IMG/VR virus record: IMGVR_UViG_3300049893_000651
Location: 1 to 24,149 of that record
Source of the DNA: a virus
Length of the DNA stretch: 24,149 nucleotides
Strand: one strand, 5' to 3'
This document shows positions 146 through 24,149 of this stretch, in pieces; position 1 is the first letter of the stretch, and each line of letters begins with the position of its first letter. The notes under the pieces were generated by a model. It was not told the DNA's origin, searched no databases, and worked only from the letters and a program-made list of their open reading frames with translations. The position numbers and the translations under genes were made by a program.

Positions 146-173
146 AGTATAGCGCGATCTGCTGGTATTACAA
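146..173 (-). promoter_or_regulatory. Putative sigma70-type promoter
   Basis: The minus strand carries TTGTAA (173-168) and TATACT (151-146) separated by 16 bases: four of six and five of six matches to the -35 and -10 consensus. It lies between the end of the beta-helix gene and the branched terminator. It would therefore either produce the short RNA ending at about 55 or supply a downstream gene by read-through. A single match of this quality can occur by chance. Confidence 0.33.
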
Positions 174-5618: not shown

Positions 5619-5646
5619 GGCTTACCCCCTTGTTAAATTGAATGCT

Positions 5647-5675
5647 ATTTTTTGTATATACATAAATTTTACCAT
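5647..5675 (-). promoter_or_regulatory. Promoter-like element upstream of the fibre cassette (copy B)
   Basis: On the minus strand this reads ATGGTA, an AT-rich spacer, then ATGTATATACAAAAAAT (5663-5647). The same 17 bases, again preceded by ATGGTA and ATTTA, occur at 23224-23208. The core TGTATATACA (5653-5662) is a perfect 10-base palindrome. TATATA (5660-5655) could serve as a -10 box, but no good -35 lies 16-18 bases upstream here, so a phage-specific activator, repressor or polymerase site is as likely as plain sigma70. Predicted start near 5648, about 30 bases before ATG at 5618. Confidence 0.5.
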
Positions 5676-5676
5676 G

Positions 5677-5689
5677 CAATCATTGATTG
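5677..5689. promoter_or_regulatory. Short inverted repeat next to promoter-like copy B
   Basis: CAATCA-T-TGATTG forms a 13-base inverted repeat with a one-base centre, right after the stop codon of the giant ejection protein and just upstream (minus strand) of copy B. The one-base loop and lack of a following U-tract argue against a terminator. A protein-binding site is possible. No counterpart is seen at copy A. Confidence 0.3.
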
Positions 5690-5692
5690 TCA

Positions 5693-8600
5693 CTACTTAT
5701 CAGCCTTTTTCCGGCGCACCATAAGATCGATTGGCTTCGCTTCCATCTCACCTGTCATAATGTCGTGGGCATTCCACAACAGTACATTCGCCTGAGTTGC
5801 CCAAGGCACTCCTGGCCAGTATGTTGCCGAATTACTCCACTTCTCAAGTTTCTCTGAAAACTCCGCGTCTTCACGCACAAGCATTGCCTCTAGCGCTGAT
5901 TCAAGCGGTCGAGTGAACGCAAATGATGTTTGCGCACGCATCTTTTCCTTCTGGCCAGTTACAAACAGGCCGACATTCCGGGATATCAGATTCCCAACAA
6001 TCGGGATTGGACGCACCCAAAAATCTACATCTTTACGCACAAAATACTGTAGCCAGCTTTCATCATCGTTTTTCCTGTCACCCATAGCCATCGATGTGGC
6101 AACTGGCATGAGAAACATATTGGCGGCCACCCAACTGGAAATCCCGATTTTATCATTTATGCTCAATGGTTCTTTCATTTCTTGGCCGGCCAAATAGATA
6201 TGCTCCACCTGGGTATATGCCCAACTCATAAAAAGATTCAATGCCCTACGCCAACCGGTCGTCTGACGCAATACCTTTGGCCTGTCTTCAGCTGCCGCAG
6301 ATGTGAAAATTTGAACCAAATTAGAGTTAGCAATTTTGACGGCTTTATTCTCACCGATGCCCATGGCAATAGCACGATCATAACTCTCATTCCATACAGC
6401 GCTTTCACATATTGTTGATATTGTATGGTAGAACCCGAATATGAGGGAATTTAAAAGCCTGCCACGCTTCTTATTTTGGAAGTAGTCGTATATGTCAGTG
6501 CTTCTGCTTTTCATTCTGTCACGGGCAACCAGAGACTTTTCAAGCATGCGATTTGTATGCTTTGAGAAATGCTGAGTATCTTCAAGCTGTTTTGCCTGAT
6601 TATTCATGATCACATTACCGATATCTGCTGCGCTCTGGAAAATTGAGCCTGGCGCTATTTTTGCTACCTTTCCAGCAACACCAAACACGCCGGACTTAAA
6701 TCCAAGTTTATATGGAGCCGTGAAAAATAAGCTGGATAAGTCACCTGTGGCTTGCCGAATATTCCATGCCATTGTTGCTACGGATGTGGATCGCGCAAAA
6801 ACATCCATATACTTTTCAAGATTTGCCACCTTTGAATTTTCAGAATTTCCATTTGTAGCAACAAATTCAAAGTAGTTTTTCAAGTCGTTAAAAGATTCAT
6901 CACCGTGCTTAGACGACCATATGTTTTTAAAATCATTCGATTTCAAAAGTTTGTTCAACCCAAGTAGGTTTTTCCTGTAATAGATATCACGCAACACAAG
7001 ATCAATTTGATGAATTCCACGGATTGGATCAATATCAACAACATAGTTCGCCCATGCTGATCTTGCCTTAGTGTACCCATTCGCTGTCAGTGTGTGATAT
7101 GCGGCTGAATCAGGCAAATCATATTGATCAAAATATTCGCCTGTTGCAAAGTTTTTATCCCGCTTCAGTGGTGCATACCACCCTTCAACGTATTGTGATT
7201 TGATATTGCCACTTTCATCACGAACCTTTACAGCCATCACGCGCTTATCAACATCCCTTGGCGCAAAGCCCTCTATCTCTAGGTAAGTGTCAACTACATT
7301 CTTGTCGTCTTTTCCTGAAAATATTTCATCACACACTTTGCCATATTCGCGAATGTAATCCCACATTTCAGGCGTCATGTACTTATCCAAAATCGTGTTG
7401 ACATAGTCATTTGTCCAATGATCGCCAAACATATTAGAAAAACCAGTCACTACCCGATCAAGCCCACTTTCAGTGCCAACAAAATGAGCAATTCCAAGAA
7501 CTTCATACATAGACAGTTTTCGGCCCTTCTCCCACTCAGCGTCCACATACTTTTTATGGAGTTCAGGCAAATTCAGTTTTTCCAAATATTCGGAAAGATG
7601 ATTCAATATTGGCAATCGCCGTGCTTCATACTTCGCCCTGGATTCACGCAACGGATCAGTGATTGCACGCCATATCGGATTTTTCGTTGGGTTTTTCACA
7701 TCACCAAAAGCCAAAGCAAGCGTTTCCACTCTGAACATATAAACCTTAGCTGATGATATAAACCCCTTCACACGGTTACCGATATCTTCCTTGTAATTGA
7801 AATCCTCTGATACTGTTCGAGAACCTTCAACCTTCAAACCTTTTTTCCGAACATAGTCAGATATCTCAGAAATAAACTCACCAAAATCCCTACGCTTCTC
7901 ACCAATCAATATCGTGTTCTCGTCATTGGCAATCTTTCGTATTGCCTTTGTGGTGTCATACAAGTCATGTAGCTGGCTCAAAGACAGCGCCTTGATATCC
8001 ATATACAATTCAGGATCACCAAGCCAATATGGCAAATCAATCTTGTCAAAATATGTGTTGTACCAATCTGGGAATGTCGTTTTAAAGAAATCATCAAAAG
8101 ATGAATGCTTTACACCAAACCGACCAAGCAAGTCAATCATAGCGTCAAGATGCACCTGATTTTTCATCAAATCTTTCCTGACTGTTGCAGTCTTATAAAT
8201 CGATCTGATATGGCGCTCTGCAAGTCTGGCCTGCTTTACTGCCGCCCTGTATTGGCTGGCAGCAAGTATCTGTTCATATTTCGCAGACACCGCCTTATAC
8301 ACATTGCGATCTTTAACGGCCTTTGCCGACAATACCGCATGATTTCGCTGTTTTGTGATCAATTCCCTCAGCGCTTTTCTCACCTGGGGCAATGTCATTT
8401 CAGATACTACACGCCAGCTGGCGGCATCAATCTCGTCCTGTCTCGCACGGATATCCTTGAAATAACCCTTGATTTCTTTATCTGCTGATTGTATGAAAAG
8501 TTTTTCGTACATTTTTTCAGTCTTTGCACGCAAAATCTTTTCTTCATACTTTTCTTTCAATTCTAATTGATCAAATAGCGCAGAGTATAAAATAGAATTT

Positions 8601-11600
8601 ACCGCCTGCTCTTTGTCCCACTTCATAAACTCTTTTTGATCAGCCAATTTTTTCCGCATTTCAATACGTGTATTTTGTTCCTTCTGTTTTGATTTCTCAA
8701 CGACAGCTCTCAGCTTTTCAACATGCTCAGCCTTTAATTCTGGAATCTCGATATCACGCAATATTTCCTCATTCGTCGGAAGCTCACCTAACTGCTTTAA
8801 CGCCTCATGCTCAGCAATGAGCGCCGTGATTGTGTCCCGGTTGTGATACGCTTCCATTGCCTTTTCATGGAAATCCGAACTATCCATGAGCACTGGGTAT
8901 TTTTCTTGTGCCGCTTCTGCAACAGCGGATTCTAAGAACTTTGACGGGCTTTCAGATTGACGGATAATTTCAGCCGCCTCAAGTATCGTCTTTACCCCAA
9001 GCATTTGATCAGACCCAACAAGCTCATCCGCCGTAACCCGACCTTCAAGCACATCCGATGCAACACCCTGCATGTACATGTGCGCAATATCAGGATCATC
9101 GAATAACCCGGGTTTGTCGGTGCTCCAATTTTTCAAATACCCATACACGCCACCACGCCACATATCATTGGCGATAGTGCCGTCCTTCTTTTCGTTAGAT
9201 TGCTGGTCAATGAATTTCTCGCGGCTTTGTAGGTACTTGCCTTCAAGCTCGTCAGACATTGCGCCAACAAGCCGCCTGAACGCCTTCTCATTTCCATCCT
9301 CACTGTATCGTCGAAGCCGGCGAAGCAGGGGAGTGGCAACGCCTGATTTTCTCAATTCATTCCATGTTGAATCGCTTTGAAGATCAGCACGAACCTGATC
9401 AATTTCATCCTGGGTGGCAAGCATTCGATCAAAGAACCCGCGAATTTTGGGGTTTATGTTGATACCAAGATCAGTATCAATGATCCACCCTTCTTTTCGT
9501 AGGGTTGAAATCTCCTTGCTTGGCAATACTTCTTGTGGCAATATCTGTTTTTTCAGAACGTATGACTTGATCGTAGAATAAATTTCAAGCATCCATTTCC
9601 TGAAATTACGGAATGCACTTTTCAAGTCTTTGCTTGGCGCCTCACCATTTTTCAAATACGCCTCAAACGAACGTGCAAATGTCTCCTGCTGCTGAGTCGT
9701 TATGGTTTCCTGATCATCCGCAATTCCAAGCCAATCACGGATCAACCCCCAATTCTCCGCGTATTCCTCTGATATCTCTCGCCCGCTTTTCACAAACTCA
9801 AACTTATCCTGAAGGAAGACATGCGCCATTTCATGCATAAAGCTCGATTGGTTTGAACCCTTGAAAATATTTATCACCCTTGGAAGCGTATCAAGATCAA
9901 CTGATGCAAAAGTCTTTCCGGGATTGTACTGTGCTTTTAAATGGTCATTAAACGCCTGCTCTTCATCCGTTAGCTTTGATACCAAATCATAAATCTTACG
10001 CTCAGTATGAAACTCCCCGCGTGATAGCATATCAATCACTTCGTTCATATCGGATGTACCGAATAACTCAGGTGAAACGGTATCCCAAGGAATTCCCTTT
10101 TTCATATCTGTGGTGAAAGTGTCTTTCGGATAGGCATTGATTACCTCAGAAAAATCGGATGCGTTATCAGGTGATATAAATATCTTCTGCTTTGATTTCT
10201 TTACGAATTGACGAACCTTATATGCCGGATCATTCTTGGCTGTCTCCATGACTTCCATTCTGATTCGTGACCGCATTGCCGCACGATTTCCGGTTTCAAG
10301 GTGAATTGGCCCGTAAATATCAGGTAATAGAGAATCAACAACTTCATCAAATGATCGGCCACTTTCTTGCGATTCACGAACAATTGATTTCATCACAATG
10401 GCCGTTTGTGATTCTGCCTCTGTTTTTATTCCACGGCCAGTGCGACCAGTTTTCTTGTATGCATTTTCAAGTCGTTGCTTTAAAATTGCTGAAATCTCGT
10501 CATGACGAACTTGGTTTTCAGAAATTATTTCCTCAAGCGCTTTACGACCATCCTTAACAAACTCATCCACGCGCTTTGCCTGGTTAGCCGTCAAATCATC
10601 CCGTGACATTCGCACAGACCCTGGCATAAGATCAGATAGCGATTTGTTTTCTTCAACCGGCTCCCTGACGGCATCACTCCATTTTTCCAGAGGAATTTCA
10701 GCGTACTTGCCGCCATCCTCAATTGCTTCCTGATAAAACCGTTCAAGCCCTGCACGCCTGAAATATTCGCGTGTTCCTTCCTCACCAAACGATTCATGGA
10801 AATCTGTAATGTCTATACCTACAGTCGGATGCTCGTGTTCGCCAGCGACCATTTTAGCGTGTTCCTCTGCCAGATGCGGGGCGCGCTCATGCATGTCATT
10901 ATTTTTGATCGCCGCGTTAATCCCTTCTATGGCATCAACACTTTCAGTGGATTTCGCAAGTGATTCGCTCAGGCCCATCATGCGGCCCAGCGCCTTTTTG
11001 GTGCCTAGACCAATCAATGATATTGTGCCGGCTCCAATAAGTGTTGGGAGAATCGCTTCTGTGGCTGATGATATCGCAATGTCACCAAAGTCTGACGTCT
11101 TGTCATACTGCTCACCCTGAATTGCCGCATAGTTGACAGCCATCTTTGTTGCAAAGTTCTGTGCGTAGTTATCAGCAAACGCAACAGCATTGGCTTTTAC
11201 AAGGTCAACCGTCGCAGTAGCGATAGCATTCTCAAGGGTTTTCCCTGAATACTTTGATATGTTCGATGTGATCTGCTTCAAAGCAAGTTTTGTTGCAGGC
11301 GTGTTTTCAGCAATCTTGTTCAGCATTGGAATGCTTGACTTTGAAATCACTGATCCCACACCTTTAAACCCGAACTTTGCAAATGTGGCAGTTCCGGCAG
11401 CGTTCAACACTGCGACAGTAAACCCGGCAACATTGGATGCCCGGCGTAAAGCATCAATATTGCTGATTCCAGCATCAACGCCCATACGCATTGCCATTGC
11501 AAATGCCATGTCCTTCGAGTAATTGAATCCAGATTCTATACCAGCTTTTGCCGGTTCATACGCGGCACCAAGCCCAACACCGATGCCAGCCCCAACCCCG

Positions 11601-12319: not shown

Positions 12320-14028
12320 TAATATGTCACCTTGTAATATTTCCCATTACGATACACGATATCTGGCTCCTGTAACCATTTTTGTGTTTCAGCTGGCAAA
12401 TCAGATAGCTTAACTCTTCCTGCATTTAAATCCTTGATCCATTCTGACTTTGTTTTCTGGAAAGGCATCACCTTTGTCTTTTTTGTCCCAAACCCAAAAC
12501 GGCCACGGCCAGTGATTACCTTTACGGAAGTGAATGATTCCTCATAAAATTTATCGATCTGCCCGGAAGATGGCTGTTTGTTTTCCTTATTCACATAATC
12601 ATTCACACGAGAATCAACCCAACTTTCAACATTCTGCATATCAGTGATGGACATAACCTTGATCTGATCATCATATTTCTTCCGAATATTATCAGACATG
12701 TTATAGTCATTGCTTTTTATCTTTGTCAGAACAGGTATCCCGCGATAACCGGAAACGGTAACAGCATCTTCAAGTCGAAGCCATGGATTTTTCACTAGCA
12801 TGTCTTCAGCCGAATTATACTGACCAGATAATAATTGACGTGTGAATTTATTCAGCTTATCCCTATATAGCTTTTCTTCTGATGCTTCCTTTGGTGCCGG
12901 TGGCTGCAATTGATTTATGATTTGTGTTTTCATTGCACTCTTCACATCACTTGATACATTCGACGCCGCTAAATCACTGAGCAATTTCTTTTGTGCAGCC
13001 GGTATTCTTTCAGGTCTGTTTTGAACATACAATCTGGCATTGTTAATTCGATCAATCCAAGACACCGTATCCGTATTATCCTGATTGCGCTTTGTTTCGT
13101 CCTTAATGGAAAACTGCGATTTGACTGCTTGGGTAAGGGCCTGTATTTGATCAGGCGAACCACCAACCTTTTGAACAGCATCAATCGCATTTTCAAGAGC
13201 TTTAGGGCCCTTACCATAGAATTTGTCAGCAATGTTTTCCGCATTTGTCTGAAGCGTCAAAGCCGCCTTAACACTCTCGGCTTTCTGCATATAATCGGAA
13301 TACACAATGGACTTTTCACCGCCCAGGATATCAGCGTTTGATTTAATCCGTGCCATAGCTTCATTATAGTAACCACCTTCAAGCATTGAAGTGACAAGGG
13401 CACCAAATGCTTTCTGTGACACATCCCGAAATTTTGAGTCTGTTATCGCTTTAGGTATGCCATTTTCAGCGTCATTGGACAGCATCATATCGTAGATTGA
13501 CTTGAATCCTGATTTGATATTTGAATCAATTGGATTATTGATGATATCACTTGCCGTCTGGCTGATCAGACCATTTGTCAGGTCGGTATTATAGGCCTTC
13601 TTCTGTGTCAACTCGCTGGTAGAAATCTGATCAATGGCATTAATTCCAGATTCGGTCAAAACCTGACGATATTTATCTCGGTATTCAGGATATGCAATTG
13701 ACTGTAATGATTTCTCAACCCGTTCATTTCTCCACTTCTGATATTCTTCAGTGATTCCTTGTGCGTCCTTACCCCTGCGGTCTAATAGATCGCGACGTTT
13801 AGCGCTATCCTCAGATTGGAATCTAATCAATTCCTCATTTACCGCTGTCTGTCTGTTCTGTTCTTCCATTGCCTTCAATCGTTCGGTAACCTGCTCAGAT
13901 GCTTTTTGGAGTGTGCCCCATGCGGCGGCAGTGGCCTGGGCCGCTTCAACTCCAAACGCCTGCTGTATTGGCTGGGCGATTTCTTTGGATGGAGCTTGGA
14001 TTTGCTGTTGATATTCTGGTAGCTTCAT
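12319..14028 (-). CDS. Internal virion / ejection protein (T7 gp15-like position)
   Basis: A 569-residue, largely helical, Gln/Lys/Asp-rich protein with few long hydrophobic stretches. The N-terminus (YQQQIQAPSKEIAQPIQQAFG, then QATAAAWGTLQKASEQVTERLKAMEEQ) leads into long amphipathic helices to about residue 145. The middle part contains TPR-like alternating helices (for example DVSQKAFGALVTSMLEGGYYNEAMARIKSNADILGGE). The C-terminal 70 residues become beta/basic. Its ATG overlaps the preceding TGA as ATGA, and its stop overlaps the next start. Sitting between a small coiled-coil protein and a giant core protein, it fits the middle component of a three-part ejection channel such as T7 gp14-gp15-gp16. 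The assignment rests on order, size and helical character rather than a catalytic motif. Confidence 0.72.
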   Translation of the reverse strand: MKLPEYQQQIQAPSKEIAQPIQQAFGVEAAQATAAAWGTLQKASEQVTERLKAMEEQNRQTAVNEELIRFQSEDSAKRRDLLDRRGKDAQGITEEYQKWRNERVEKSLQSIAYPEYRDKYRQVLTESGINAIDQISTSELTQKKAYNTDLTNGLISQTASDIINNPIDSNIKSGFKSIYDMMLSNDAENGIPKAITDSKFRDVSQKAFGALVTSMLEGGYYNEAMARIKSNADILGGEKSIVYSDYMQKAESVKAALTLQTNAENIADKFYGKGPKALENAIDAVQKVGGSPDQIQALTQAVKSQFSIKDETKRNQDNTDTVSWIDRINNARLYVQNRPERIPAAQKKLLSDLAASNVSSDVKSAMKTQIINQLQPPAPKEASEEKLYRDKLNKFTRQLLSGQYNSAEDMLVKNPWLRLEDAVTVSGYRGIPVLTKIKSNDYNMSDNIRKKYDDQIKVMSITDMQNVESWVDSRVNDYVNKENKQPSSGQIDKFYEESFTSVKVITGRGRFGFGTKKTKVMPFQKTKSEWIKDLNAGRVKLSDLPAETQKWLQEPDIVYRNGKYYKVTY

Positions 14029-14528
14029 TTCTTGTCCTCACCCTTGCCTTGACCCATCATTGGTATCCACCGGCTTGAAACGCTCGATGCAGTATCCAGC
14101 CAGGTCATTGCCGACTGTGCTGACGAAGTCTCGAGAGCATATTTACCAGATTGCCGTAATTGCCTTTGCTTCTCCCGGCTTGTAGCAATCAAATTCTGTG
14201 CGGTCTGTTGCAATATGGTCTTATCGATAGCCAACTGTGAGGCCGTTGATTTGGATAGCGCCTTTAATCCGGCGCCCTCGTAACCGGCAGAAGCGGCGGC
14301 AAGTGTCTGTTCATCCTCAACTGATGCCGCGGCCCGTGTGATTTCGCTTTCCTTCCGACTAACCTGAAACACATCCTCAATAGATCGCTTTTCCTCAGCG
14401 ACGGCTAGGCTGTTATAATATTCCTGTTCACGCCTGCCGGCCTCAGCCTGGGCCTCTGCTTTTTGACTGCCGGAAAATATGTCGAAAAGGGTTTGTGCCG
14501 CTGCAAAAATAACCATCAAATCAGCCAT
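14025..14528 (-). CDS. Small internal virion protein (T7 gp14-like position)
   Basis: A 167-residue protein with a short hydrophobic N-terminal helix (LMVIFAAAQTLFDIFSG), then an Ala/Glu/Gln-rich helical body (about residues 20-130) and a basic, flexible C-terminus. AAASAGYEGAGLKALSKSTAS around residues 77-97 matches the Ala/Gly turn found in gp14-like internal proteins between two long helices. Shine-Dalgarno TAGGAG lies eight bases before ATG. It opens the ejection block, right after the nozzle gene, and is coupled by ATGA to the next protein. Expected to be ejected first and to form the outer-membrane part of the channel. That role is known for T7 gp14 and inferred here. Confidence 0.7.
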   Translation of the reverse strand: MADLMVIFAAAQTLFDIFSGSQKAEAQAEAGRREQEYYNSLAVAEEKRSIEDVFQVSRKESEITRAAASVEDEQTLAAASAGYEGAGLKALSKSTASQLAIDKTILQQTAQNLIATSREKQRQLRQSGKYALETSSAQSAMTWLDTASSVSSRWIPMMGQGKGEDKK

Positions 14529-14539
14529 GATTCACACTC

Positions 14540-17374
14540 CTATTCAATATTCATGATAATCCCTGCAATCTGAGAAGGCAAAGGGCTTTGCTGTTCGTGA
14601 TAAAACTGTGATGCTTCCCATGCGTTTTCACTCGAATGCCGGGACAGCAAATCAAACTCTTCCCACCCGGTAAATGGCTGTTCAGGACTGCCAATACTCG
14701 TTGATCTGGCCGGCACTTCAATCTTTTCCGCTTCGCTCGGACCAACCCAACCACCAACGGAATCAACCCACCGCACTTTTACTTTCGATACCTTTTGCTT
14801 TTGTGCGTGACCGGATTCGCCTTGTCTATCGACTACCTGATGTAAGGGCTCAAACTTTGCTGTATATGGAAGACCGATTTGAATTTTCGAGGCGTTTGAA
14901 TCAAGCGTCAAAGTGGCGGTCTGTCCTGTAACTGTCTTTCCAGATATCTTGTATCCGTCTGCCAATACTCCGATAGTCTTTCCTTCATACACATAAATAT
15001 CTGTATAAACTGTCTCTGCCCATGTCTTCGTTGGTGACTGACTTGTGAGTGTCTGGCCAGCATCAACAAAAAAAGCGTCAGTAATCGATGTGTAATTTCT
15101 GGAATCAAGCCATTCAACCTCATAGGTTTTCAGTCCATAGTGCATGCGCTCCACCACAATAAACAGCTTGTCAAAATCACCAGACATTACAGCAATGTCA
15201 TGGATAACGCCACCAAAGTCGTGAATGGAGAAAGCGGCAATTTGAAGCTGACGTGAATAGGTGAGTGATACCAATTTACCGTCTGACCTCAGAAGCCAAA
15301 CGATTCCCCAAGGCTTTGCCTGATACACTATCCGCTTGAACGTGTACCCATTGAAATACTGCCGGCAGAATACCTGCATTTCAGTGTTGTCATAGCTGTC
15401 ATTCTGTTCAGTGTAGTCGAACGCCCTCAATGACGATAGCCCGGACTGAAGATACATGATCGTTCGGTCGGCAATTACCGGTTCAATTGCACCTGAACCA
15501 ACACCAGACGATTTCCGTGTGATCGGAATATTCAACGGACCATAACCGGCAGTATCTGGAATTACAGACCACTCTCCACGCTTTGTGAATATGATCAGGT
15601 CACGAAATGAAATCACATTGGTGATTGTTTCTGTGCTCTCAGATGGCAAATCAACGTTCATTGCATCCGCAGGCTGTACGGGATTATTGATTTTGAAATT
15701 GAAATAGTCACCTGGCTGTGATTCCCACCGGGTATCTGGTTGGGAAGTAGTGCAAGCAAAACCAAGTCGGTTCTGATAGAAGTACACGACCGATGGCCAT
15801 CCATCAATATCATTGAACGCATCAATTTCAATGGTGTCATAATCGATATTTGTATTCGGTGCATCCACTGTATTCAGTGTGGGAACAGATGATGGCGGTG
15901 GTGTGATGGGCGTGAAATAAGACTGTGAATCCTGTATAACACCATAACTCTCATAGGCAAATGCATCCGTATTCAATTCAAATGAAACAGAATCACCAGC
16001 ACCACCATTCTTTATTACAATCTTGATCGCGCACTTTTCGTTGAACGTGAATGATCCATAAGTACCGACTGTGATTTCCTTGCCTAGAATCCAGTTACAG
16101 TCAGTGCCGACAGTCAGATTCATTTCAGTTGCATAATAGAGCTTTATGTAATATGTCCCGGACTGTGATCCGGTAAACGAATAGTAAATTGTTCCATTAC
16201 AAATGATTGGCGATAGATACCGCGTGATTGCTGTAGATACCGTTCCGGTGTACTTGTAGGCAGGGTAGAACTTGTTCAGCTTGATATTGGCGCCGTAGAT
16301 ATTGGAAGCGCCCCACTTGTACCCTGAAAATGGACTGGGGCCATACCCACTTGCCTTATCAATCGCCAGGTCAGAATCAGAATAAAAGAACGGACCATAG
16401 TCAAGCGAAATATCTTCCAGATAAAAAGCATCAAGCGCATAAAATTTCAGCACCTTGGGCTTTTTTGTGCCAGTCACAAACACAATTAAATCCCGGTGAT
16501 GGACGTGCTTAATCAGCTGGATGTCATTAGCGTCATAATCTGTTGTGATTTCTGGGTTGATAATTGAAGCCAACACCCCGACCTTTGTATAGATCAGGTC
16601 ATTCATAAATTCATTCAGCCGGTACGCACCTTCAGTATATGGAAATTCGTCATATACGATATTTGAAGTTGGTAAAGTGCCGTCCCACATTGAATCTGTA
16701 GTGACCCACCAGTAACTTATATCCAAACTAAAGCCGGAACCATTCGCAACAAGATAGGAGTTTACAGCGCTTTTCGAGTTTTTTGATCCTGTTGTATTCG
16801 CAAATTTAAAGGTGAAAAGTGGCTTTGTATTGTATGTTGTTTCTGTAATCACAAAATTATCGGATGAATTCACAGCAACTTGGACATAACAACATGGCAA
16901 TCCAACTGGTGTATCGCTCACAATGTAAGTGTTAGATGTGGAATGGATAGTCATGTGAGCGGTACCGCTTTTCAACGTATACCCGCTGCCGGTTTTCACA
17001 TACTCAAACGGGTTATAATACCCGGTATATTTTCGCTTTGTTAAAGTTAAAGGTGACCATTCATTAAGATTGTTCGTATCTAAATTTGTAGTTGTAGCGT
17101 CTGAGTTTAATATCCGCATTTTTGTTGGTGAGAACTGCAAAATATACTTCTCACTGTCTGATATCTCAAGCGGTATGATGCGATTCGCATACTGCATATT
17201 GTTGAATTGCTTTGTGAAGTGCGTACCTGGGCGCATCATCCAGTTTCCTTCAGGCGTGATGAAGCCATTTTCACTTGTCTTAATTCCGTACTGTACGCGC
17301 TGAATATCCTGTCTATGATAGAGGGCAGGGCTGATCACACCACCTGAAAATGACTGTTGCAGTTTTTCAACCAT
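14540..17374 (-). CDS. Tail nozzle protein (tail tubular protein B-like)
   Basis: A 944-residue protein that forms the tail tube end in podoviruses. The N-terminus has the typical SFSGGVISPALYHRQD and GFITPEGNWMMRPGT (about 39-53) of this family. Residues about 575-760 carry its conserved core: NVISFRDLIIFTKRGEWSV, an RKSSGVGSGAIEPV segment, YLQSGLSSLRAFDYTEQNDSYD, IVYQAKPWGIVWLLRSDGKLVSLTYSRQ, and IAVMSGDFDKLFIVVER. The region about 300-560 is beta-rich and looks like an inserted domain. GAGG lies five bases before ATG, within the end of the adaptor gene. Length is near that of BPP-1-type nozzle proteins and longer than T7 gp12. It follows the adaptor, as in related phages, and would be the binding platform for the fibres. 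Confidence 0.9.
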   Translation of the reverse strand: MVEKLQQSFSGGVISPALYHRQDIQRVQYGIKTSENGFITPEGNWMMRPGTHFTKQFNNMQYANRIIPLEISDSEKYILQFSPTKMRILNSDATTTNLDTNNLNEWSPLTLTKRKYTGYYNPFEYVKTGSGYTLKSGTAHMTIHSTSNTYIVSDTPVGLPCCYVQVAVNSSDNFVITETTYNTKPLFTFKFANTTGSKNSKSAVNSYLVANGSGFSLDISYWWVTTDSMWDGTLPTSNIVYDEFPYTEGAYRLNEFMNDLIYTKVGVLASIINPEITTDYDANDIQLIKHVHHRDLIVFVTGTKKPKVLKFYALDAFYLEDISLDYGPFFYSDSDLAIDKASGYGPSPFSGYKWGASNIYGANIKLNKFYPAYKYTGTVSTAITRYLSPIICNGTIYYSFTGSQSGTYYIKLYYATEMNLTVGTDCNWILGKEITVGTYGSFTFNEKCAIKIVIKNGGAGDSVSFELNTDAFAYESYGVIQDSQSYFTPITPPPSSVPTLNTVDAPNTNIDYDTIEIDAFNDIDGWPSVVYFYQNRLGFACTTSQPDTRWESQPGDYFNFKINNPVQPADAMNVDLPSESTETITNVISFRDLIIFTKRGEWSVIPDTAGYGPLNIPITRKSSGVGSGAIEPVIADRTIMYLQSGLSSLRAFDYTEQNDSYDNTEMQVFCRQYFNGYTFKRIVYQAKPWGIVWLLRSDGKLVSLTYSRQLQIAAFSIHDFGGVIHDIAVMSGDFDKLFIVVERMHYGLKTYEVEWLDSRNYTSITDAFFVDAGQTLTSQSPTKTWAETVYTDIYVYEGKTIGVLADGYKISGKTVTGQTATLTLDSNASKIQIGLPYTAKFEPLHQVVDRQGESGHAQKQKVSKVKVRWVDSVGGWVGPSEAEKIEVPARSTSIGSPEQPFTGWEEFDLLSRHSSENAWEASQFYHEQQSPLPSQIAGIIMNIE

Positions 17375-17376
17375 GT

Positions 17377-17964
17377 CTACCTCGCGTCTGTGTATGTGCT
17401 TGTTTCAGGTAATATGATTCTTTGCTGGGCGTTATCCAGACCCTTGGCCTTCATTTTCGTCATTTCATACATCTCAATATTGCTTTTCCGCTTTTCTTCC
17501 TTGTCGGTCAAAAACACGGCCATTTCAGCGGCCAATTTGTATTTGATCGCTTCAATAACGTGTGCAGTATAATCCACCGTCGGGCTGACATTCTTGATAT
17601 AAACTGCATGGGCATCATCAAGGTTCGTAACAATGATTCGATTTGAAATCGACGTGTCACGAACAACATCCCATTTGTCCGCAATATTACCAAGTGAATC
17701 GTTCACTGACCTCAAGAGTAATGCAGATGCCGGGAAAGTGTAGGCATATTCATATCCAGGGATATCACAAGTAGCAAGCTGAGATAGCTCCGCATGGCAG
17801 ATGGAAAACCGCAAACCCATTTCCGTCAAAACCATTTCCACTGTATGCGTGTAATACACCCGATACGCTTCAACCCGCTTGTCTGTCCCGGTAAGCGCTG
17901 ACAGCCGGCTTTCGCCAAGTGTCGCAAGCGCCATATTCATTATCTCAAGGTCAGTGATCGACAT
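17377..17964 (-). CDS. Tail adaptor (tail tubular protein A / gp11-like)
   Basis: A 195-residue, mainly helical protein. DLEIMNMALATLGESRLSAL at residues 5-24 is the standard opening of gp11-type adaptors. It is followed by VEAYRVYYTHTVEMVLTEMGLRFSICHAELSQL and YEYAYTFPASALLLRSVN, with the helix-strand-helix arrangement that packs beneath the portal ring. A C-terminal helix ends in a charged tail. GGGGGG lies eight bases before ATG. Stop and the nozzle gene's ATG are two bases apart. In podoviruses twelve copies attach to the portal and hold the nozzle. Order adaptor-nozzle is conserved. Confidence 0.85.
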   Translation of the reverse strand: MSITDLEIMNMALATLGESRLSALTGTDKRVEAYRVYYTHTVEMVLTEMGLRFSICHAELSQLATCDIPGYEYAYTFPASALLLRSVNDSLGNIADKWDVVRDTSISNRIIVTNLDDAHAVYIKNVSPTVDYTAHVIEAIKYKLAAEMAVFLTDKEEKRKSNIEMYEMTKMKAKGLDNAQQRIILPETSTYTDAR

Positions 17965-17967
17965 AGC

Positions 17968-18348
17968 TTATGCCCCCCGTACTTTCCGCTTTGTGGCAGC
18001 GGTAGCATCATCAAGAGCGGTTTCATCCGGGACATTGCTTTGGTCCTCAATGACGGATTCCACGTACTCTTTCAACGACTCATCAATCTGATCAGTAAGC
18101 TCATTAGCCACCGTTTCAGTAGGCTGTTCCGGCTCTGTTTGTTCGGAAGTGACCGGCATTTCTGCCGGCTCTCCCCGATATTCACGAACCATATTGATCG
18201 CGGCCTCATCCGTAGGCTGAAAGCATTTGAGCAATAAACCATCGAATTTATCAAGCTCGAATGGTTGAACGTCATGTACTTCTTCACCTGTGGTAAAGAA
18301 CCGATCACGAAAGCCGTAGCTCTTCTCTGTCGCCGTGAATATCGCCAT
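17968..18348 (-). CDS. Small acidic protein of the head-tail junction region, unknown
   Basis: A 126-residue protein. Residues 1-57 look folded (IFTATEKSYGFRDRFFTTGE, FDGLLLKCFQPTDEAAINMV). Residues 58-115 are low-complexity and strongly acidic (many Glu, Gln, Thr, Pro), and the last ten are basic (ATKRKVRG). It lies three bases from both neighbours, the cement protein and the tail adaptor. Its ATG has only a weak GGTGT upstream, so coupling to the previous stop is likely. A small acidic gene at this place is common in this phage type, but I know of no proven role. Possibilities are head completion or assembly chaperone. Confidence 0.62.
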   Translation of the reverse strand: MAIFTATEKSYGFRDRFFTTGEEVHDVQPFELDKFDGLLLKCFQPTDEAAINMVREYRGEPAEMPVTSEQTEPEQPTETVANELTDQIDESLKEYVESVIEDQSNVPDETALDDATAATKRKVRGA

Positions 18349-18349
18349 T

Positions 18350-18751
18350 TTATGACACCGCCTGGAATGACACGTCTCCCGTTACGAATGCGGATGCCAA
18401 AGCCGGACCAGTAGCGTTAGAACCAGCGACAGTATAATAAACACGGACATACCGCTTTGTATTCTGCGGAATCTTGAATTTAACCAGAGTCGTATTTGCA
18501 GTTAACGAAGCCGGCAAAAGTGCCGCCGTTGAATAATGGGTAGTTGCGTTTGAAAAGCCTGTATTATCAGCGCTTTGAACTGAAACAACAAGGCTAGTCA
18601 AAGTCGCCCAAGCATTTGCGCCAGTTTTTACAACTACCCAAGAACCATCGTATGCGCCACCCGCGGCCAACGTGTCAATATAGTTTGTACTTGCCGCTGA
18701 TCCCGTTACGGTCTGCCCGTCTGACATATAGGTCAAGTTATCAGTAATCAT
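18350..18751 (-). CDS. Capsid cement/decoration protein, Bbp16-like
   Basis: A 133-residue, all-beta protein. The layout fits the Bbp16 cement protein of BPP-1: N-terminal NLTYMSDGQTVTGSAASTNYID, a loop, LTSLVVSVQSADNTGFSNAT in the middle, then TTLVKFKIPQNTKRYVRVYYTVAGSNATGPALASAFV. Ending strands (RYVRVYYTV) and SAASTNYID are particularly typical. Bbp16 is a jelly-roll trimer that clamps capsid proteins at the shell surface. AAGGAG lies seven bases before ATG. The gene is the second after the major capsid gene; BPP-1 has cement right after capsid, so an extra gene is inserted here. Confidence 0.78.
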   Translation of the reverse strand: MITDNLTYMSDGQTVTGSAASTNYIDTLAAGGAYDGSWVVVKTGANAWATLTSLVVSVQSADNTGFSNATTHYSTAALLPASLTANTTLVKFKIPQNTKRYVRVYYTVAGSNATGPALASAFVTGDVSFQAVS

Positions 18752-18762
18752 GTTTTTTCTCC

Positions 18763-19263
18763 TTAATAGAATCCAACAACACCAGTTGTGTAGTGGAATA
18801 CGAGATTTACTGCCGGTGTAGCCGCCGTTGTCCCGTTGGTAATTGACAACTTAATCACATCGCCTGGGTCAAAGCTGGAATAAACATCATTCCAATTGGT
18901 GTGTAATGTTGTTTTATCAGGAAACAACGTCACTGCATTGAATGTAAGACTGACCACAGATGTGTCGTTCTTTTTCAATACCCATTCTGATGTGTTACTG
19001 CCATCAATTCCCGCAGAATTATCAAGCGCATGGATTGTGACTGACCGTAACGTGCGGTAGGTTTCAAGTGCTGTATTGGTAAACGTTGGATTTGTCCAAA
19101 TCGCAACCTCATCCAAATCAACACCAGCCGCAAGTGCCGGGATATGAATGCATGTTTCATAGTGGCTATGAGGTTGAAAAGTATACAGCTCATTTACCAT
19201 TGTCTGGACATGCTGCCGTAAACTGCCACCACCAAAAACATCACGAAATTGAATAATCGCCAT
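18763..19263 (-). CDS. Beta-sandwich capsid-associated protein, probable head decoration
   Basis: A 166-residue protein placed directly after the capsid gene, with AAGGAG seven bases before ATG. The N-terminal 35 residues are helical (FGGGSLRQHVQTMVNELYTF). The rest alternates strands: VDLDEVAIWTNP, TLRSVTIHALDNSAGIDGSN, SVVSLTFNAVTLFPDKT, FDPGDVIKLSITNGTT, AVNLVFHYTT. The GDVIKLSITNGT-AVNLVFHY ending resembles the C-terminal domain of phage head fibres and decoration proteins, where a polar 'GD' turn precedes two edge strands. Strong ribosome site and location suggest high expression. I do not recognise an exact family. Alternatives are a second cement protein or head-fibre trimer. Confidence 0.65.
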   Translation of the reverse strand: MAIIQFRDVFGGGSLRQHVQTMVNELYTFQPHSHYETCIHIPALAAGVDLDEVAIWTNPTFTNTALETYRTLRSVTIHALDNSAGIDGSNTSEWVLKKNDTSVVSLTFNAVTLFPDKTTLHTNWNDVYSSFDPGDVIKLSITNGTTAATPAVNLVFHYTTGVVGFY

Positions 19264-19274
19264 GAGTGCGCTCC

Positions 19275-20288
19275 TTATGAAATCGCAGTTTCAGTGTTAA
19301 GAATCGCATCGCAACGACGGATAGGAATACCCTTGAATCGCATTTCAGTGTAGGTGACACCATACAGAGGATCAACCAAATCAACGTACCGGAAAGTATC
19401 GCTGAACAGCTTCATTTTGATTTCAAGGTAGGTCATTACAGTGCGATTGCAATAAAACACCATTTGCTTTCCAGATGGGTTATTGATCATATTGACGGCA
19501 CGGGTCATGTGCTTGATCAGGTTCGTTGAAGTGTCTGTGGAATCACCAGCAGTCGCCAGGTCAGACATATCAATATTCGCAATACGAACAATGTTCTTAT
19601 AGTTCTGGACAGCAAGACCACAATCCCAACCATAGATCGATGCTAAACCACGGAATTTATTGTTCGACGCATCAAAACAATCAATTTCGCCAAGGTCCTT
19701 ATATTGAATACCAGCCTGACTGTTTTTCGGGTAGATGCCATAAACTGAGTTATCGCCCCATGCAACCAGCCACATAGATGAATTATCAGAAGATGAACCG
19801 CCAGCCTTAATGATTTGTCCACCAGTATCTGAATTTGAAGTAGCCGCATAACGAGGCGCAAGGCCAGTGAATTCAACTTCGTTGCTGTCCTGATTGCCAT
19901 AGAATAGAAGATCAACAAATGTTTGATTCAACGATTCAATGAATGCCGCGTCTTCACTCATACGCCAAGATTCGGTGTTGCCGTTCAATTTCGCTAATTT
20001 AAGATCAACCTCAGCGCGGGTTTCCAGCATTGCCATTGTCTCAGTGCGTTGCATGGTGGTTGACTTGGTTGCCGCAACACCCTGATTCAAACGCCGTTTG
20101 GTTACACCAGGCAGTGACGTACGATAAGTAGTAAGGTGACCAGTAGCCAGATTAGAAGCCTTCCAAGGAATATCAAGTCGGATTGCATCTTCACGGGCAA
20201 GGATTTCAACGATATTACGCGAAATCATGCCATCTTCCATACGGTTATAAAAGTCAATTAATGTCGGTAAAGTAGTTGCTAAAGGCAT
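19275..20288 (-). CDS. Major capsid protein (HK97 fold)
   Basis: A 337-residue protein of the epsilon15 gp7 / BPP-1 Bbp17 type. The N-terminus (ATTLPTLIDFYNRMEDG, then NIVEILAREDAIRLDIPW) has no long prodomain helix, consistent with a separate scaffold. TTYRTSLPGVTKRRLNQGV (about 53-71) is the E-loop region. SEDAAFIESLNQTFVDLLFYGN is the spine-helix area. The C-terminus MRFKGIPIRRCDAILNTE (about 314-331) is the typical ending P-domain strand. AAGGA lies just upstream of ATG with a seven-base spacer. It follows scaffold, as in this phage group. There is no visible protease gene, so maturation cleavage is not expected. Confidence 0.9.
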   Translation of the reverse strand: MPLATTLPTLIDFYNRMEDGMISRNIVEILAREDAIRLDIPWKASNLATGHLTTYRTSLPGVTKRRLNQGVAATKSTTMQRTETMAMLETRAEVDLKLAKLNGNTESWRMSEDAAFIESLNQTFVDLLFYGNQDSNEVEFTGLAPRYAATSNSDTGGQIIKAGGSSSDNSSMWLVAWGDNSVYGIYPKNSQAGIQYKDLGEIDCFDASNNKFRGLASIYGWDCGLAVQNYKNIVRIANIDMSDLATAGDSTDTSTNLIKHMTRAVNMINNPSGKQMVFYCNRTVMTYLEIKMKLFSDTFRYVDLVDPLYGVTYTEMRFKGIPIRRCDAILNTETAIS

Positions 20289-20302
20289 AGCACTGTCCTT
20301 TC

Positions 20303-20881
20303 TTAATCAAGTACCATATTGCTATTTGGATACATTGGTTGTTTTTGTGGGGTAGGGACGCCACCACCGGATACATTTGCATCCTTCAAGGATTCCCCAA
20401 TTGCCGCCATGAATTTCACGAAAACTGGATTATTACCAAGTCCGGTCTCCCGCTGAAAAGCGGTGAACGCTTCGCGATCATCTTTTGGCATGAACTTATC
20501 AAGCGCGGTCATAATTGCGGCCTGCTTGTCTTTCAGTTTATCGCCAAATGCTTTATTGATTTCTGCTTTTTGTTCCTCTTGCTTCGCTGACCATTCTGCT
20601 TTTCGTTTCGCTTCCTGTTCAGACAACGCCTTTTCAACCGCGCTTTTCGTTGCGTCTGACTTATCCTTCAACCAATGCTCTGCCGCTTCCTTGGAAAGCC
20701 CGAGACTCTTGAACATATCCTTGTGTTTTTGGATATCTTCATCATTGAGGCTCAGCCCTTCAGGCAGCTTCAAATCATCATAGGACACGTCAACCGCTTT
20801 TTCTGCGGGTTGATTCATTGCATCATCAAGGACAGTACCTTGTCCATGGCCTTCATTTTCCACTTCAGTTTGTTGTGTCAT
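20303..20881 (-). CDS. Scaffolding protein
   Basis: A 192-residue, charged, helical protein with few aromatic residues. The N-terminal 30 residues are acidic and disordered. Residues about 48-125 form a Lys/Glu/Ala-rich coiled coil (SLGLSKEAAEHWLKDKSDAT, ALSEQEAKRKAEWSAKQEEQ). MTALDKFMPKDDREAFTAFQRETGLGNNPVFVKFMAAIGESL (about 129-170) is the capsid-interaction-type C-terminal region. It lies right before the capsid gene and overlaps the 3' end of the Bbp19-like gene by 17 bases. This order and composition match scaffolds of BPP-1-type phages. It guides procapsid shell assembly and is then expelled. Confidence 0.85.
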   Translation of the reverse strand: MTQQTEVENEGHGQGTVLDDAMNQPAEKAVDVSYDDLKLPEGLSLNDEDIQKHKDMFKSLGLSKEAAEHWLKDKSDATKSAVEKALSEQEAKRKAEWSAKQEEQKAEINKAFGDKLKDKQAAIMTALDKFMPKDDREAFTAFQRETGLGNNPVFVKFMAAIGESLKDANVSGGGVPTPQKQPMYPNSNMVLD

Positions 20882-21170
20882 TTTCGTTCATAGCCTTTCT
20901 GGTGTCGAGCACCGATTTTCTTTCATTTACCATCTGCCTATACTTGTCCGGCGCTTCCGTGATCAATAGGTGCATCAACTGTTTTCCAAGGTCAGATTTA
21001 CCATTCTTATACGCCATTGCATATGCATTCTGGTCAAAGTGTGACTGTAAAGGCTGGCACTGTTCGAGTAGCCAGAACATAAACCTTCGGAAGTCCGGGC
21101 GGGCGATCAGTGTATTAAAATCCTTCCTGATCTGGTCAATGTCCCTCATCTCTGGTACAAATGCGGTCAT
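20865..21170 (-). CDS. Bbp19-like phage protein
   Basis: A 101-residue protein coupled to the portal gene by an ATGA overlap and to the scaffold gene by a 17-base overlap. FRRFMFWLLEQCQPLQSHFD (27-46), AYAMAYKNGKSDLGKQLMHLL and APDKYRQMVNE reproduce the helical pattern of the Bbp19 domain found between portal and scaffold in BPP-1-like podoviruses. No catalytic or membrane features. Its function in assembly is not established to my knowledge. Conserved location next to portal and scaffold suggests a help in initiating procapsid assembly. Confidence 0.75.
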   Translation of the reverse strand: MTAFVPEMRDIDQIRKDFNTLIARPDFRRFMFWLLEQCQPLQSHFDQNAYAMAYKNGKSDLGKQLMHLLITEAPDKYRQMVNERKSVLDTRKAMNENDTTN

Positions 21171-22879
21171 ACTGGCTGGCCCCCCGTTATCGCTCCAAGT
21201 GCGGTCTGTTTACCGATAGGAGTTTGGGCAAGTGCCTGGGTGGCCTGGATGGCGCTGGTATAATCCTGGCGCTGCTGCTGCTCCATCATTGCTTGTTCGC
21301 GGGTTTCACGCAGTTCACGTACCTTGTCCGCGCCCTTCAAATGTTCGTTTGCACCCAGGTTTAGTGCGTATTTCTTCACAACATCATCAACGTCCAGCCA
21401 GTCCATCGGATCATCACCGGAATCACCCTGGGTGCTACTCCGTAAGTATGTCAAAAACTGGACGAGCTGTTCCATCGGTAGCATTTCAGTTGCACGCTGA
21501 AGGATAGACAGGATACCAACGAACTTGAATTTGACTTCTTGGCCCTGCAATGCGGAAGGCACCCGGCCAATGCGGGCCTCGGCCAGTGTCATCAATTCGC
21601 CTTCAACCGTGACCATCGTATTCATCACGATATTGAGCACGATTTCAAGCATATGAGACAGCGCCTTTTGAAGCTGCATAACGACAGGGCCCACGGCCTC
21701 AACCATTTCAGAGTATCGGCGATTCACTTCATAGGCGGTCATTCGATTTGGGCCAAGGGTTTTCAACAACTGGAATAAATCAACAAAGAACATCGAGTCA
21801 ATTTTCAGTTCCTTTTCCCTGATCGCCTCAATCAAATATTTCGGGTCCCTGAACGGCATTGCAGGGGTAAGGCCGATATTCCCACCGCCGGCAGCCGCCA
21901 TGCCAGCCTCAAAAGTAATCACACCACCTGGCACGATCTGTGTATGATCGCTGACCCCATGTGACACCCAAGTCGGATTGGCATTAAAGGCATTGATCAT
22001 ATTCAAGTCTTTCTGCATGGCCTGAAGCTCTTTCACTTCTGGAAGGGCGATAGCACCGGGATATTCGCCACCATAAATCTGGCTGCTATCAATCGGGTGG
22101 GCCGTCGCTACGACGACAGGAAAATAATCAAATCCGCTCTGTTCAATGAACTTGTCCTGATGCTCAGATTCCAGCCACTTCAACGACAGCCACCGGCGGG
22201 ATCGGGGATCATCCTTTGTGGCCTCATAATCGCTATTCGGGATAATGATCCACATATAATTCCGGTAGGTATTAAACTGCTTATTGTCATACGCCTGCTT
22301 AATCGAATATGGCATCTGATCATACCCGAACTCTTCCACAAGCTGGCCAACAGATTTCCTCTGTTTGACTGCAAACTTGGTAACTGCGCCACGCTTATCA
22401 CGGCCAAGATAGTAACTCCCTGCGGTAAACGAATATGCACGCACAACATCTTCATAGTCGCGGGCGACAATAAACACACCACGGGAAAACAGATTGAATT
22501 CCTTGTACAGATTAATCAACTCGGCATAGACATTCGATTCAGCCAGGATCAACCGGATATCAGCGGTAAGATCAGCAAGCCATTGTGCGGCATCGGAATC
22601 ATCATAGGCTTTATTCATTGGCTGGCAGACAAACCACGTTTTGGTCTGATCGCTCATATAACTCATAAACCCGGCGGCGCACTTCTCGACGCTAGTGAGT
22701 GCATAAGAATTCAAAATCGTTTTGCCATCGACAAACCGCTTTTTATTCTCCGACAGGTTGAAAGCGCCACGCATAGGGGCCATATACTTTGAAATCTCAA
22801 CATCCATAGACTGCTGAGCCGCCCTGTACTCGGATTCCATCGAAAGGTAAATCTTTTCTGCCGTCTTTTGATCAATCAT
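21167..22879 (-). CDS. Portal protein (head-to-tail connector)
   Basis: A 570-residue protein of the podovirus head-to-tail connecting family. Landmarks: KTILNSYALTSVEKCAAGFM near residue 55, DIRLILAESNVYAELINLYK around 107-126, YMWIIIPNSDYEATKDD near 210, HPIDSSQIYGGEYPGAIALPEVKELQ around 258-285, and NRMTAYEVNRRYSEMVEAVG near 385. The end (EQQQRQDYTSAIQATQALAQ) is a Gln/Ala-rich coiled tail. It starts inside the preceding gene's stop (ATGA) and ends likewise over the Bbp19-like gene. Twelve copies form the ring through which the terminase packs DNA and on which the adaptor docks. Length is normal for the family. Confidence 0.9.
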   Translation of the reverse strand: MIDQKTAEKIYLSMESEYRAAQQSMDVEISKYMAPMRGAFNLSENKKRFVDGKTILNSYALTSVEKCAAGFMSYMSDQTKTWFVCQPMNKAYDDSDAAQWLADLTADIRLILAESNVYAELINLYKEFNLFSRGVFIVARDYEDVVRAYSFTAGSYYLGRDKRGAVTKFAVKQRKSVGQLVEEFGYDQMPYSIKQAYDNKQFNTYRNYMWIIIPNSDYEATKDDPRSRRWLSLKWLESEHQDKFIEQSGFDYFPVVVATAHPIDSSQIYGGEYPGAIALPEVKELQAMQKDLNMINAFNANPTWVSHGVSDHTQIVPGGVITFEAGMAAAGGGNIGLTPAMPFRDPKYLIEAIREKELKIDSMFFVDLFQLLKTLGPNRMTAYEVNRRYSEMVEAVGPVVMQLQKALSHMLEIVLNIVMNTMVTVEGELMTLAEARIGRVPSALQGQEVKFKFVGILSILQRATEMLPMEQLVQFLTYLRSSTQGDSGDDPMDWLDVDDVVKKYALNLGANEHLKGADKVRELRETREQAMMEQQQRQDYTSAIQATQALAQTPIGKQTALGAITGGQPV

Positions 22880-23187
22880 ATCTGGCCCGCTCCACTTGTC
22901 CCGTCAAAATTTGGTGATATCAAATTGCTCACCGGGTTCACTGTATCCATTGCCGTTCGGCCACGCTTCATCTCAATATTCCGCTGTATCCGGGCACGCA
23001 TCGAAAGCACCTGCCGGGTACCCTGCTTCCGCTTCCGTTCGGTCGCGCCATAAACCTGGTCTATCAACGAGGACATATCAGTTCCGGGTACTGCTGAAAA
23101 AGTAGTTCCCGGGGTAGCGGACTTGTATATGCCAGACAGCATATTTTCAAAATCTCCTTGAATAGGCAAATATCCAATGTAAGCCAC
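22876..23187 (-). CDS. Small protein between terminase and portal, unknown
   Basis: A 103-residue protein beginning with GTG (23187-23185); GAGGGAG seven bases upstream decides this start. It is the first gene after the promoter-like gap and couples to the portal gene by ATGA. About residues 1-35 are apolar (AYIGYLPIQGDFENMLSGIY). The middle is strongly basic (ERKRKQGTRQVLSMRARIQRN), with a positive net charge. The end is Asn/Gly-rich. The basic centre would fit nucleic acid or acidic-protein contact. A small gene at this place is usual in related phages, but no function is known to me. Confidence 0.65.
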   Translation of the reverse strand: MAYIGYLPIQGDFENMLSGIYKSATPGTTFSAVPGTDMSSLIDQVYGATERKRKQGTRQVLSMRARIQRNIEMKRGRTAMDTVNPVSNLISPNFDGTSGAGQI

Positions 23188-23207
23188 GCTAAAACTCCCT
23201 CATTGAC

Positions 23208-23244
23208 ATTTTTTGTATATACATTAAATCATACCATATTTCAA
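23208..23244 (-). promoter_or_regulatory. Promoter-like element between terminase and head genes (copy A)
   Basis: On the minus strand TTGAAA (23244-23239) and TATATA (23221-23216) are 17 bases apart, a good sigma70-type arrangement. The -10 region lies in ATGTATATACAAAAAAT (23224-23208), identical to copy B at 5663-5647; both are preceded by ATGGTA and ATTTA. The palindrome TGTATATACA spans 23214-23223. Predicted start near 23209, just ahead of the GAGGGAG ribosome site, gives a leader of about 22 bases. It lies entirely after the terminase stop codon. Confidence 0.55.
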
Positions 23245-23250
23245 CAAAAA

Positions 23251-24149
23251 TCAATACCTATTAAACCCATATATGCTTTTAACTGCGTGCTCCATATTCG
23301 CGATAGGTACAGTAGAACCATAGTTCGGGAGAGCCAAACCGGCAGCTGTAAGGGCGGGATAATCAAAGCCCCCTGATCGCTTCTGTATCGGAATGGCAAA
23401 CGTAACGGCAAGGGCATCGGCACGGTTAGGCGACCGGATACCACGCACCTTCATATCCTTCTTCGATTCAAGTATCATCCACCCGGCCCTTGTTCCACTC
23501 ATTACCGTATGCATTTCAGGGAAGGCTAGTTCCTGTTCAAGCTCTGTGTCATCATTATCAAGCACAGCACCATCACGCAGCCATATCCCCATCTGCCGCC
23601 ATATCCACGTCCGCATATTCGCATAACCAACTTCCGGGGCCTTACTACCAAATGGCACTAAATACACGCCCTTAAAGCCCATAGCCTTCAGCGCACTATA
23701 AATCCCAGTACCATACCCCTGATCCAATATCCACGCATCAACAGGATACTCGTGCATTGTCCGTACCCTCGCAACAATATCACCGGCAGTAATCACATCA
23801 TTGTCATTCCTCGGGATTGTCAGGACATGCCGCACAAAATTGCCCTGCCTCAAATACACCTCAAGCGGATCATCACCTGTCCACGAACCATCTATACCAA
23901 CAATAACAGGGGCGTGATTCCAATCCGTCTTACTCCGAAACACCCGCTTACGGGCACTCGCGATCCACTCAGACAATATCGCCTGATTAATACTCGACCT
24001 GGGGAACATACCCCTAATTCGTACCCTAACAAAATCAGAATCCTCACCCCACTCATCAACCATGGCCGCCAATTCCGCCTTATTCGTCAGCGTCACTGTC
24101 CGGCTATCAATCTGCTTTGTCCGCCACCGACTCTTTGGCTTATGAAAAC
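23251..24149 (-). CDS. terL: Terminase large subunit, nuclease part (5' end outside window)
   Basis: The frame is open to the window edge, so the protein start and the ATPase domain are missing; about 299 residues are visible. A GTG at 24096 is an internal codon, because homologous sequence continues before it (WRTKQIDSRTVTLTNKAEL). GEDSDFVRVRIRGMFPRSS marks the end of the ATPase/linker region. The RNase H-like nuclease follows with three acidic landmarks: D in VGIDGSWTGDDP (codon 23892-23890), D in WILDQGYGTG (23724-23722) and D in SPNRADALAV (23418-23416). The enzyme pumps DNA through the portal and cuts it. Stop is TGA, 63 bases before the next gene. No small terminase is inside the window; it would lie further right. 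Confidence 0.9.
   Translation of the reverse strand, partial: FHKPKSRWRTKQIDSRTVTLTNKAELAAMVDEWGEDSDFVRVRIRGMFPRSSINQAILSEWIASARKRVFRSKTDWNHAPVIVGIDGSWTGDDPLEVYLRQGNFVRHVLTIPRNDNDVITAGDIVARVRTMHEYPVDAWILDQGYGTGIYSALKAMGFKGVYLVPFGSKAPEVGYANMRTWIWRQMGIWLRDGAVLDNDDTELEQELAFPEMHTVMSGTRAGWMILESKKDMKVRGIRSPNRADALAVTFAIPIQKRSGGFDYPALTAAGLALPNYGSTVPIANMEHAVKSIYGFNRY

Follow-up and report, generated by a model that had tools for sequence, protein, structure and literature searches.

A palindromic block shared at the predicted start sites of two putative late promoters in a BPP-1-like podovirus

The only two long gaps inside the late gene array of this viral DNA each hold a match to a sigma70 promoter of the extended -10 class, and at the predicted start site of both lies the same 17-base block, ATGTATATACAAAAAAT, built around a palindrome. 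The explanation that we consider somewhat more credible than its opposite is that these are two late promoters, here called P_A and P_B, placed under common control by a lineage-specific operator at the start site. Within that model the promoters are well supported, and the operator role of the palindrome and the existence of a regulator are what we infer.

The window, by which we mean the whole stretch of DNA analysed (24,149 nucleotides), is a 24.1-kb IMG/VR fragment with every gene on the minus strand. The gene order is large terminase (partial), a 103-aa protein, portal, a scaffold/protease-like protein, major capsid and small head proteins, followed by two tail-tube proteins and inner virion proteins that include a 2208-aa giant, after which come 172-aa, 1082-aa fibre-like, 103-aa and 444-aa proteins. 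The 1082-aa fibre gene contains repeated stretches at 4016-4360, where a repeat of 14 or more bases spaced 327 bp indicates internal repeats in the protein. The relatives of the window are BPP-1-like podoviruses, with capsid identity of about 43% to BPP-1 and others and portal identity of 25-28%. No close relative was found in IMG/VR with the portal, the 172-aa protein and the capsid as queries, the best identity in the capsid alignment being 46%.

Copy A of the block lies in a gap of 63 bp (23188-23250) 5' of the head/tail genes and copy B in a gap of 74 bp (5619-5692) 5' of the fibre genes, just as the first-pass annotation had placed them. Its further statement, that these are the only gaps above 60 bases, holds inside the gene array, where all others are of 14 bp or less, and fails for a third gap of 166 bp at 42-207. 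The features of the two gaps, with the first gene behind each, are as follows.

23249-23254, minus strand: P_A -35 hexamer TTGATT, with a sub-optimal 15-nt spacer, overlapping the terminase stop codon
23228-23236, minus strand: P_A extended -10 element TGG-TATGAT, approximate rank 8 of 24108 minus-strand positions
23208-23224, minus strand: copy A of ATGTATATACAAAAAAT, with TGTATATACA at 23214-23223, about -2 to +8
22876-23187, minus strand: 103-aa protein, first gene behind P_A, with a GTG start and GAGGGAG 5' of it
5688-5693, minus strand: P_B -35 hexamer GTGACA, with a 16-nt spacer, overlapping the stop codon of the 2208-aa gene
5666-5674, minus strand: P_B extended -10 element TGG-TAAAAT, approximate rank 1 of 24108 on the minus strand and rank 1 over the two strands together
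5647-5663, minus strand: copy B of ATGTATATACAAAAAAT, with TGTATATACA at 5653-5662, about -3 to +7
5100-5618, minus strand: 172-aa protein, first gene behind P_B, with the 1082-aa fibre-like gene (1855-5103) next

The 103-aa protein behind P_A has no PHROG or Pfam match, and the 172-aa protein weakly matches Rhizobium phage proteins (26-31% identity). No regulator or DNA-binding domain was found among the window proteins scanned, the 24-kb fragment holding late genes only.

The 17-mer occurs exactly twice. With up to three mismatches allowed, the only further matches in the window come from reading these two sites on the opposite strand, against a chance expectation of 0.17, and the core TGTATATACA, a perfect 10-bp palindrome identical in both copies, is confined to these two places even with one mismatch. 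These counts bear out the first-pass description of the repeat and its core, and dispose, within the window, of the concern that unrelated copies might lie elsewhere. Equally sound was its report of ATGGTA and ATTTA 5' of both copies at near-equal spacing, the difference being 1 nt. When ATGGTA is included, 27 of 30 aligned bases are identical between the copies, which stand in direct orientation at module borders; identity continues beyond the dyad into CAAAAAAT / ACAAAAAAT, and the flanks of the two promoters are not shared, the likeness being limited to the promoter region. Since the longest string common to both gaps (17) exceeds the maximum of 14 seen in 3000 dinucleotide simulations of the gap pair (mean 6.9; 0/3000 reached 17), the repeat is not due to chance. 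Both leaders are essentially unstructured. An RNA hairpin or terminator in the block was considered and rejected, its folds being near zero and weaker than those of shuffles.

In both copies ATGGTA belongs to an extended -10 element, in which TGn stands directly 5' of a TATAAT-like hexamer, and the -35 element that is optional in this sigma70 class, at 15-19 nt, is present as GTGACA/16 in P_B and TTGATT/15 in P_A. The first-pass annotation had credited copy A with a good -35 and copy B with none; the reverse is the case, P_B being the best sigma70 match of the window on a ranking by one simple matrix, written from general knowledge, which is approximate and on which the exact rank depends. Each of the three gaps holds a top-8 minus-strand site, and the placement of three of the eight best sites within ~300 bp of gaps is not expected. 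Counted from the -10, the block spans about -3 to +15, which places it at the start site and makes it neither a -35 nor a -10 element. The combination of an extended -10 with a start-site block makes host polymerase the likely reader, so that a phage polymerase is not needed. The earlier proposal that the block itself is the recognition element of a phage factor, premised on a copy B devoid of sigma70 features, thereby loses its footing; a phage-encoded regulator acting at the shared palindrome is possible, and the parallel in Pseudomonas phage AF described below raises that possibility. What stands of the proposed division into separately controlled units is that both gaps hold predicted promoters, from which the head/tail and fibre blocks could be started separately. 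The promoter matches lend good support to a promoter of its own for each of the two sets, morphogenesis and fibre genes, and co-control of the two late blocks is plausible.

The third gap, between the 444-aa gene and an ATG at 41, has a predicted promoter of its own from which the block is absent.

146-173, minus strand: P_C, TTGTAA-16-TATACT, sigma70-like, approximate rank 6 on the minus strand

The sequence after P_C, at nt 50-145 of the minus strand, forms a compact GC-rich structure (-40.6 kcal/mol, z -4.6) in which two inner hairpins are closed by a 10-bp stem and followed by a U-rich tail, just 5' of the ATG at 41. It has no Rfam match and no significant DNA relatives, and could represent either a small RNA or a terminator of elaborate form.

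The conservation in relatives that the first-pass annotation had anticipated was not found, TGTATATACA being absent from 80 homologous IMG/VR loci (~1.06 Mb) and from six reference phages. A pattern scan of viral contigs for the block gave five matches, three of them from one unrelated lineage and two chance-like, and none for a permuted-palindrome control; a DNA search against phage records gave only matches with E around 1, in AT-rich genomes. A scan of bacterial and archaeal genomes was discounted, its ten scattered matches, some within genes and some promoter-like in Clostridia/Lactobacillales, being no evidence for a phage element. In unrelated podovirus contigs (L012 1715-1805; also L009 and L010), TGGTATAAT-ATA-ATGTATATACAAAAA stands 5' of the tail-adaptor gene; this type of block is very like copy A of the window.

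The gap behind the giant inner-protein gene is itself common among relatives, measuring 60-86 bp in BPP-1, DC33, Carin1, MW202640, Tr60_Ab31, vir555 and AF, and being shorter or absent in CP2, PS25B.1, HU1 and MW202473; in some relatives it contains a terminator-like hairpin. A loosely defined search for recurring start blocks, which yielded 503 real and 209 control pairs, was uninformative and gave way to a targeted one in 93 BPP-1-like sequences, which looked for paired extended -10 sites with a 9-mer in common downstream and took the reversed sequence as control. The pairs of the window and of AF, together with one coding repeat, were all that this returned (reversed control 0), a result from which no frequency estimate follows, many of the 93 members being incomplete loci that fail to reach across both sites.

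Pseudomonas phage AF (JX676771) is a distant BPP-1-like relative (portal identity 28%) that shows the same design as the window: two extended -10 promoters, one at the packaging/head block and one behind the giant gene, with one palindromic block at both starts and nowhere else in the genome. Its P1, 5' of the terminase genes, reads TGGTATGATTGATCAATATTTGACCAATAC, and its P2, in the gap behind the giant inner-protein gene, reads TGGTTAAAATTTGATCAATATCC; these are the first and second best plus-strand sigma70 matches of the phage, P1 having been scored with the record ends joined, as the site lies 19 bases from the start of the record. Both carry TTGATCAATAT at the start site, an 11-mer with exactly two copies in the 42.7 kb genome (expected 0.005), and near-copies lie at +12 of P1 and about -36 of P2. 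The two phages differ in the palindrome, which is TTGATCAA(TAT) in AF and TGTATATACA in the window; in the position of the first promoter, 5' of the small terminase gene in AF and behind the large terminase gene in the window; and in the extra operator-like copies, which are present in AF and absent from the window. A near-identical sister contig, L173, repeats this design, and its P1 and P2 share 17 identical bases. Its P1 carries the stretch TGGTTAAAATTTGATCA, identical to its P2 and missing from P1 of AF, which suggests copying between promoters. Clusters of TTGATCA(A) were also noted around both late promoters, at 27-48 and 20234-20281 in AF (L164) and at 2309-2350 and 22166-22212 in L173.

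The palindrome was not found upstream of the one Cro/C1-type gene of AF, and auto-control by that protein is therefore not supported; a role as an immunity-type operator near the Cro-like gene was accordingly dropped. The AF relatives at 49-63% whose giant/fibre junction is readable (L176, L177, L180, L185) lack a long gap at that place, which implies that the second promoter is optional in the group. The AF layout suggests that in each phage a control element peculiar to it links the two late gene blocks.

A mechanism consistent with these features can be outlined. Host RNA polymerase would recognise TGG-TATGAT or TGG-TAAAAT together with a partial -35, and active transcription from P_A and P_B would begin at a nucleotide within the palindrome, so that both messengers would start with nearly the same A-rich leader, e.g. 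AUAUACAAAAAAU. TGTATATACA would be the binding site of a dimeric protein, probably a regulator of the phage whose gene lies beyond the fragment; this protein would keep both promoters closed early in infection, with the head/tail and fibre blocks then presumably released together. Early repression would be the simplest sign of regulation for a dyad placed on the start of a strong promoter. We read the shared dyad as an operator because AF has a dyad of different sequence that is likewise a palindrome, is confined to its two promoters and recurs in extra copies at other distances; such varied spacing from the start would suit an operator better than a fixed leader. Against an operator, the shared part extends past the palindrome into CAAAAAAT, an extension that a simple dyad operator does not need, the window block is not conserved among homologous loci, and no regulator appears among the window proteins scanned.

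The main rival to co-control dispenses with the regulator, and takes P_A and P_B for plain constitutive host promoters whose block is kept as initially transcribed sequence, an A-rich leader that could serve start-site choice, promoter escape, message stability or ribosome loading, with the palindrome incidental. We regard this as possible but doubtful. Identity that runs past the dyad into ACAAAAAAT and the lack of structure in both leaders are what it would predict, and the block 5' of the tail-adaptor gene in L009, L010 and L012 looks as if such a start region were simply a good one; yet the start-site sequence of AF differs and is nonetheless palindromic, with extra copies both upstream and downstream of the start, P_C does without the leader, and the L012-type block is not retained in its own 55-60% relatives. 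An unlikely alternative is that the identity reflects ancestry rather than a function for every base, through recent copying of a promoter by short gene conversion or promoter transposition, or through a homology linker for module exchange. The 27 of 30 identical bases, the direct orientation at module borders and the stretch shared by P1 and P2 of L173 all speak for copying, which leaves unexplained, however, the sharing of promoters without their flanks and the same arrangement in AF. Copying is in any case compatible with co-control by an operator, because it would keep both promoters under one regulator.

It is very improbable, by comparison, that P_A and P_B are promoters of a phage-encoded RNA polymerase or of a phage sigma factor to which the shared 30 bases serve directly as recognition sequence, a version of the phage factor suggested in the first-pass annotation. 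The length of the shared block, and its place in the operon's only two long internal gaps, would suit such a reader, but both sites are top sigma70 matches, and the shared region has a 1-nt change of length between the copies, of a kind that single-subunit polymerase promoters do not normally tolerate. Nor is an RNA polymerase annotated in the relatives examined, and none was found in UFJF_PfDIW6 (PMC8951688).

Among known systems, repressor operators at the start site have a symmetric site overlapping -10 to +10, and both copies carry such a dyad, at about -3 to +8. The use of one element by several late promoters is a known phage design, exemplified by T7 class III and by the Ogr-dependent promoters of P2. 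In P2 and 186, as in the window, several late promoters of one phage share a TGT...ACA dyad; theirs, dependent on Ogr/Delta, is TGT-N12-ACA near -55, and that of the window is TGT-N4-ACA at +1. The fixed-length block of ~23 bp with G-rich start that marks T7-type single-subunit polymerase promoters is not matched by the 1-nt length change and A/T-rich start seen here, and in place of the LexA/SOS box CTGT-N8-ACAG both copies have ATGT-N8-AAAA. TreR boxes TTGTATATACAA / ATGTATATACAA have the TGTATATACA dyad core (PMC11356801), and an oligonucleotide with TGTATATACA was used with E. faecalis Phd (PMC13034048). The B. licheniformis TreR variant ATGTATATACAA equals window bases 23224-23213 and 5663-5652, giving the window a GntR/HutC-type, TTGTATATACAA-like box by sequence resemblance only; the fragment has neither such a regulator nor tandem operators. 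These examples show that a TGTATATACA dyad can be bound, and do not indicate its binder in the window.

A second and different class of late promoter is apparent in other members of the group. BPP-1, Limnohabitans phage DC33 and MW202640 have four GGT[GA]CCCGT[GA] boxes each, all of them on the late strand, and three more loci (L044, L057, L064) have two each; 17 of the 18 boxes have TAnnnT at exactly 18 nt downstream, and most lie close 5' of a start codon. DC33 (L004, PQ492659.1) carries a taxonomy line of Inoviridae and the genes of a BPP-1-like tailed phage. The boxes in the three phage loci with four each are as follows.

L003, late strand: GGT[GA]CCCGT[GA] boxes at 13408, 15570, 18955 and 33517
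L004, late strand: boxes at 34056, 22241, 4585 and 964
L006, late strand: boxes at 39325, 33342, 21844 and 4786

Like the window, BPP-1 and DC33 have a lineage-specific repeat in a few of the gaps of the late region, the giant/fibre gap among them. They share, however, a box at what appears to be the -35 position with a minimal -10, whereas the window, which has no GGTRCCCGT box, shares the region from -10 to start. A box in that position suggests an activator or an altered reading of the -35.

No account of late transcription control in BPP-1-like short-tailed phages was found in the literature searched, nor did that search, from which the original AF genome paper was absent, give a description of host-type extended -10 promoters with a dyad at the start site. 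We propose tentatively, and with confidence somewhat short of even, that some BPP-1-like podoviruses link their late units through host-type extended -10 promoters and one phage-specific start-site palindrome, which may vary between lineages (TGTATATACA here, TTGATCAA in AF) and be homogenised between promoters, while others use the repeated GGTRCCCGT box at the -35 position to the same end. The two repeated promoter classes, at the start site in the window and AF and at -35 in BPP-1 and DC33, offer precise start sites to map. Their arrangement would mean that the genes of host recognition can be started separately from those that build the virion, and yet be linked with them through an element that both have in common.
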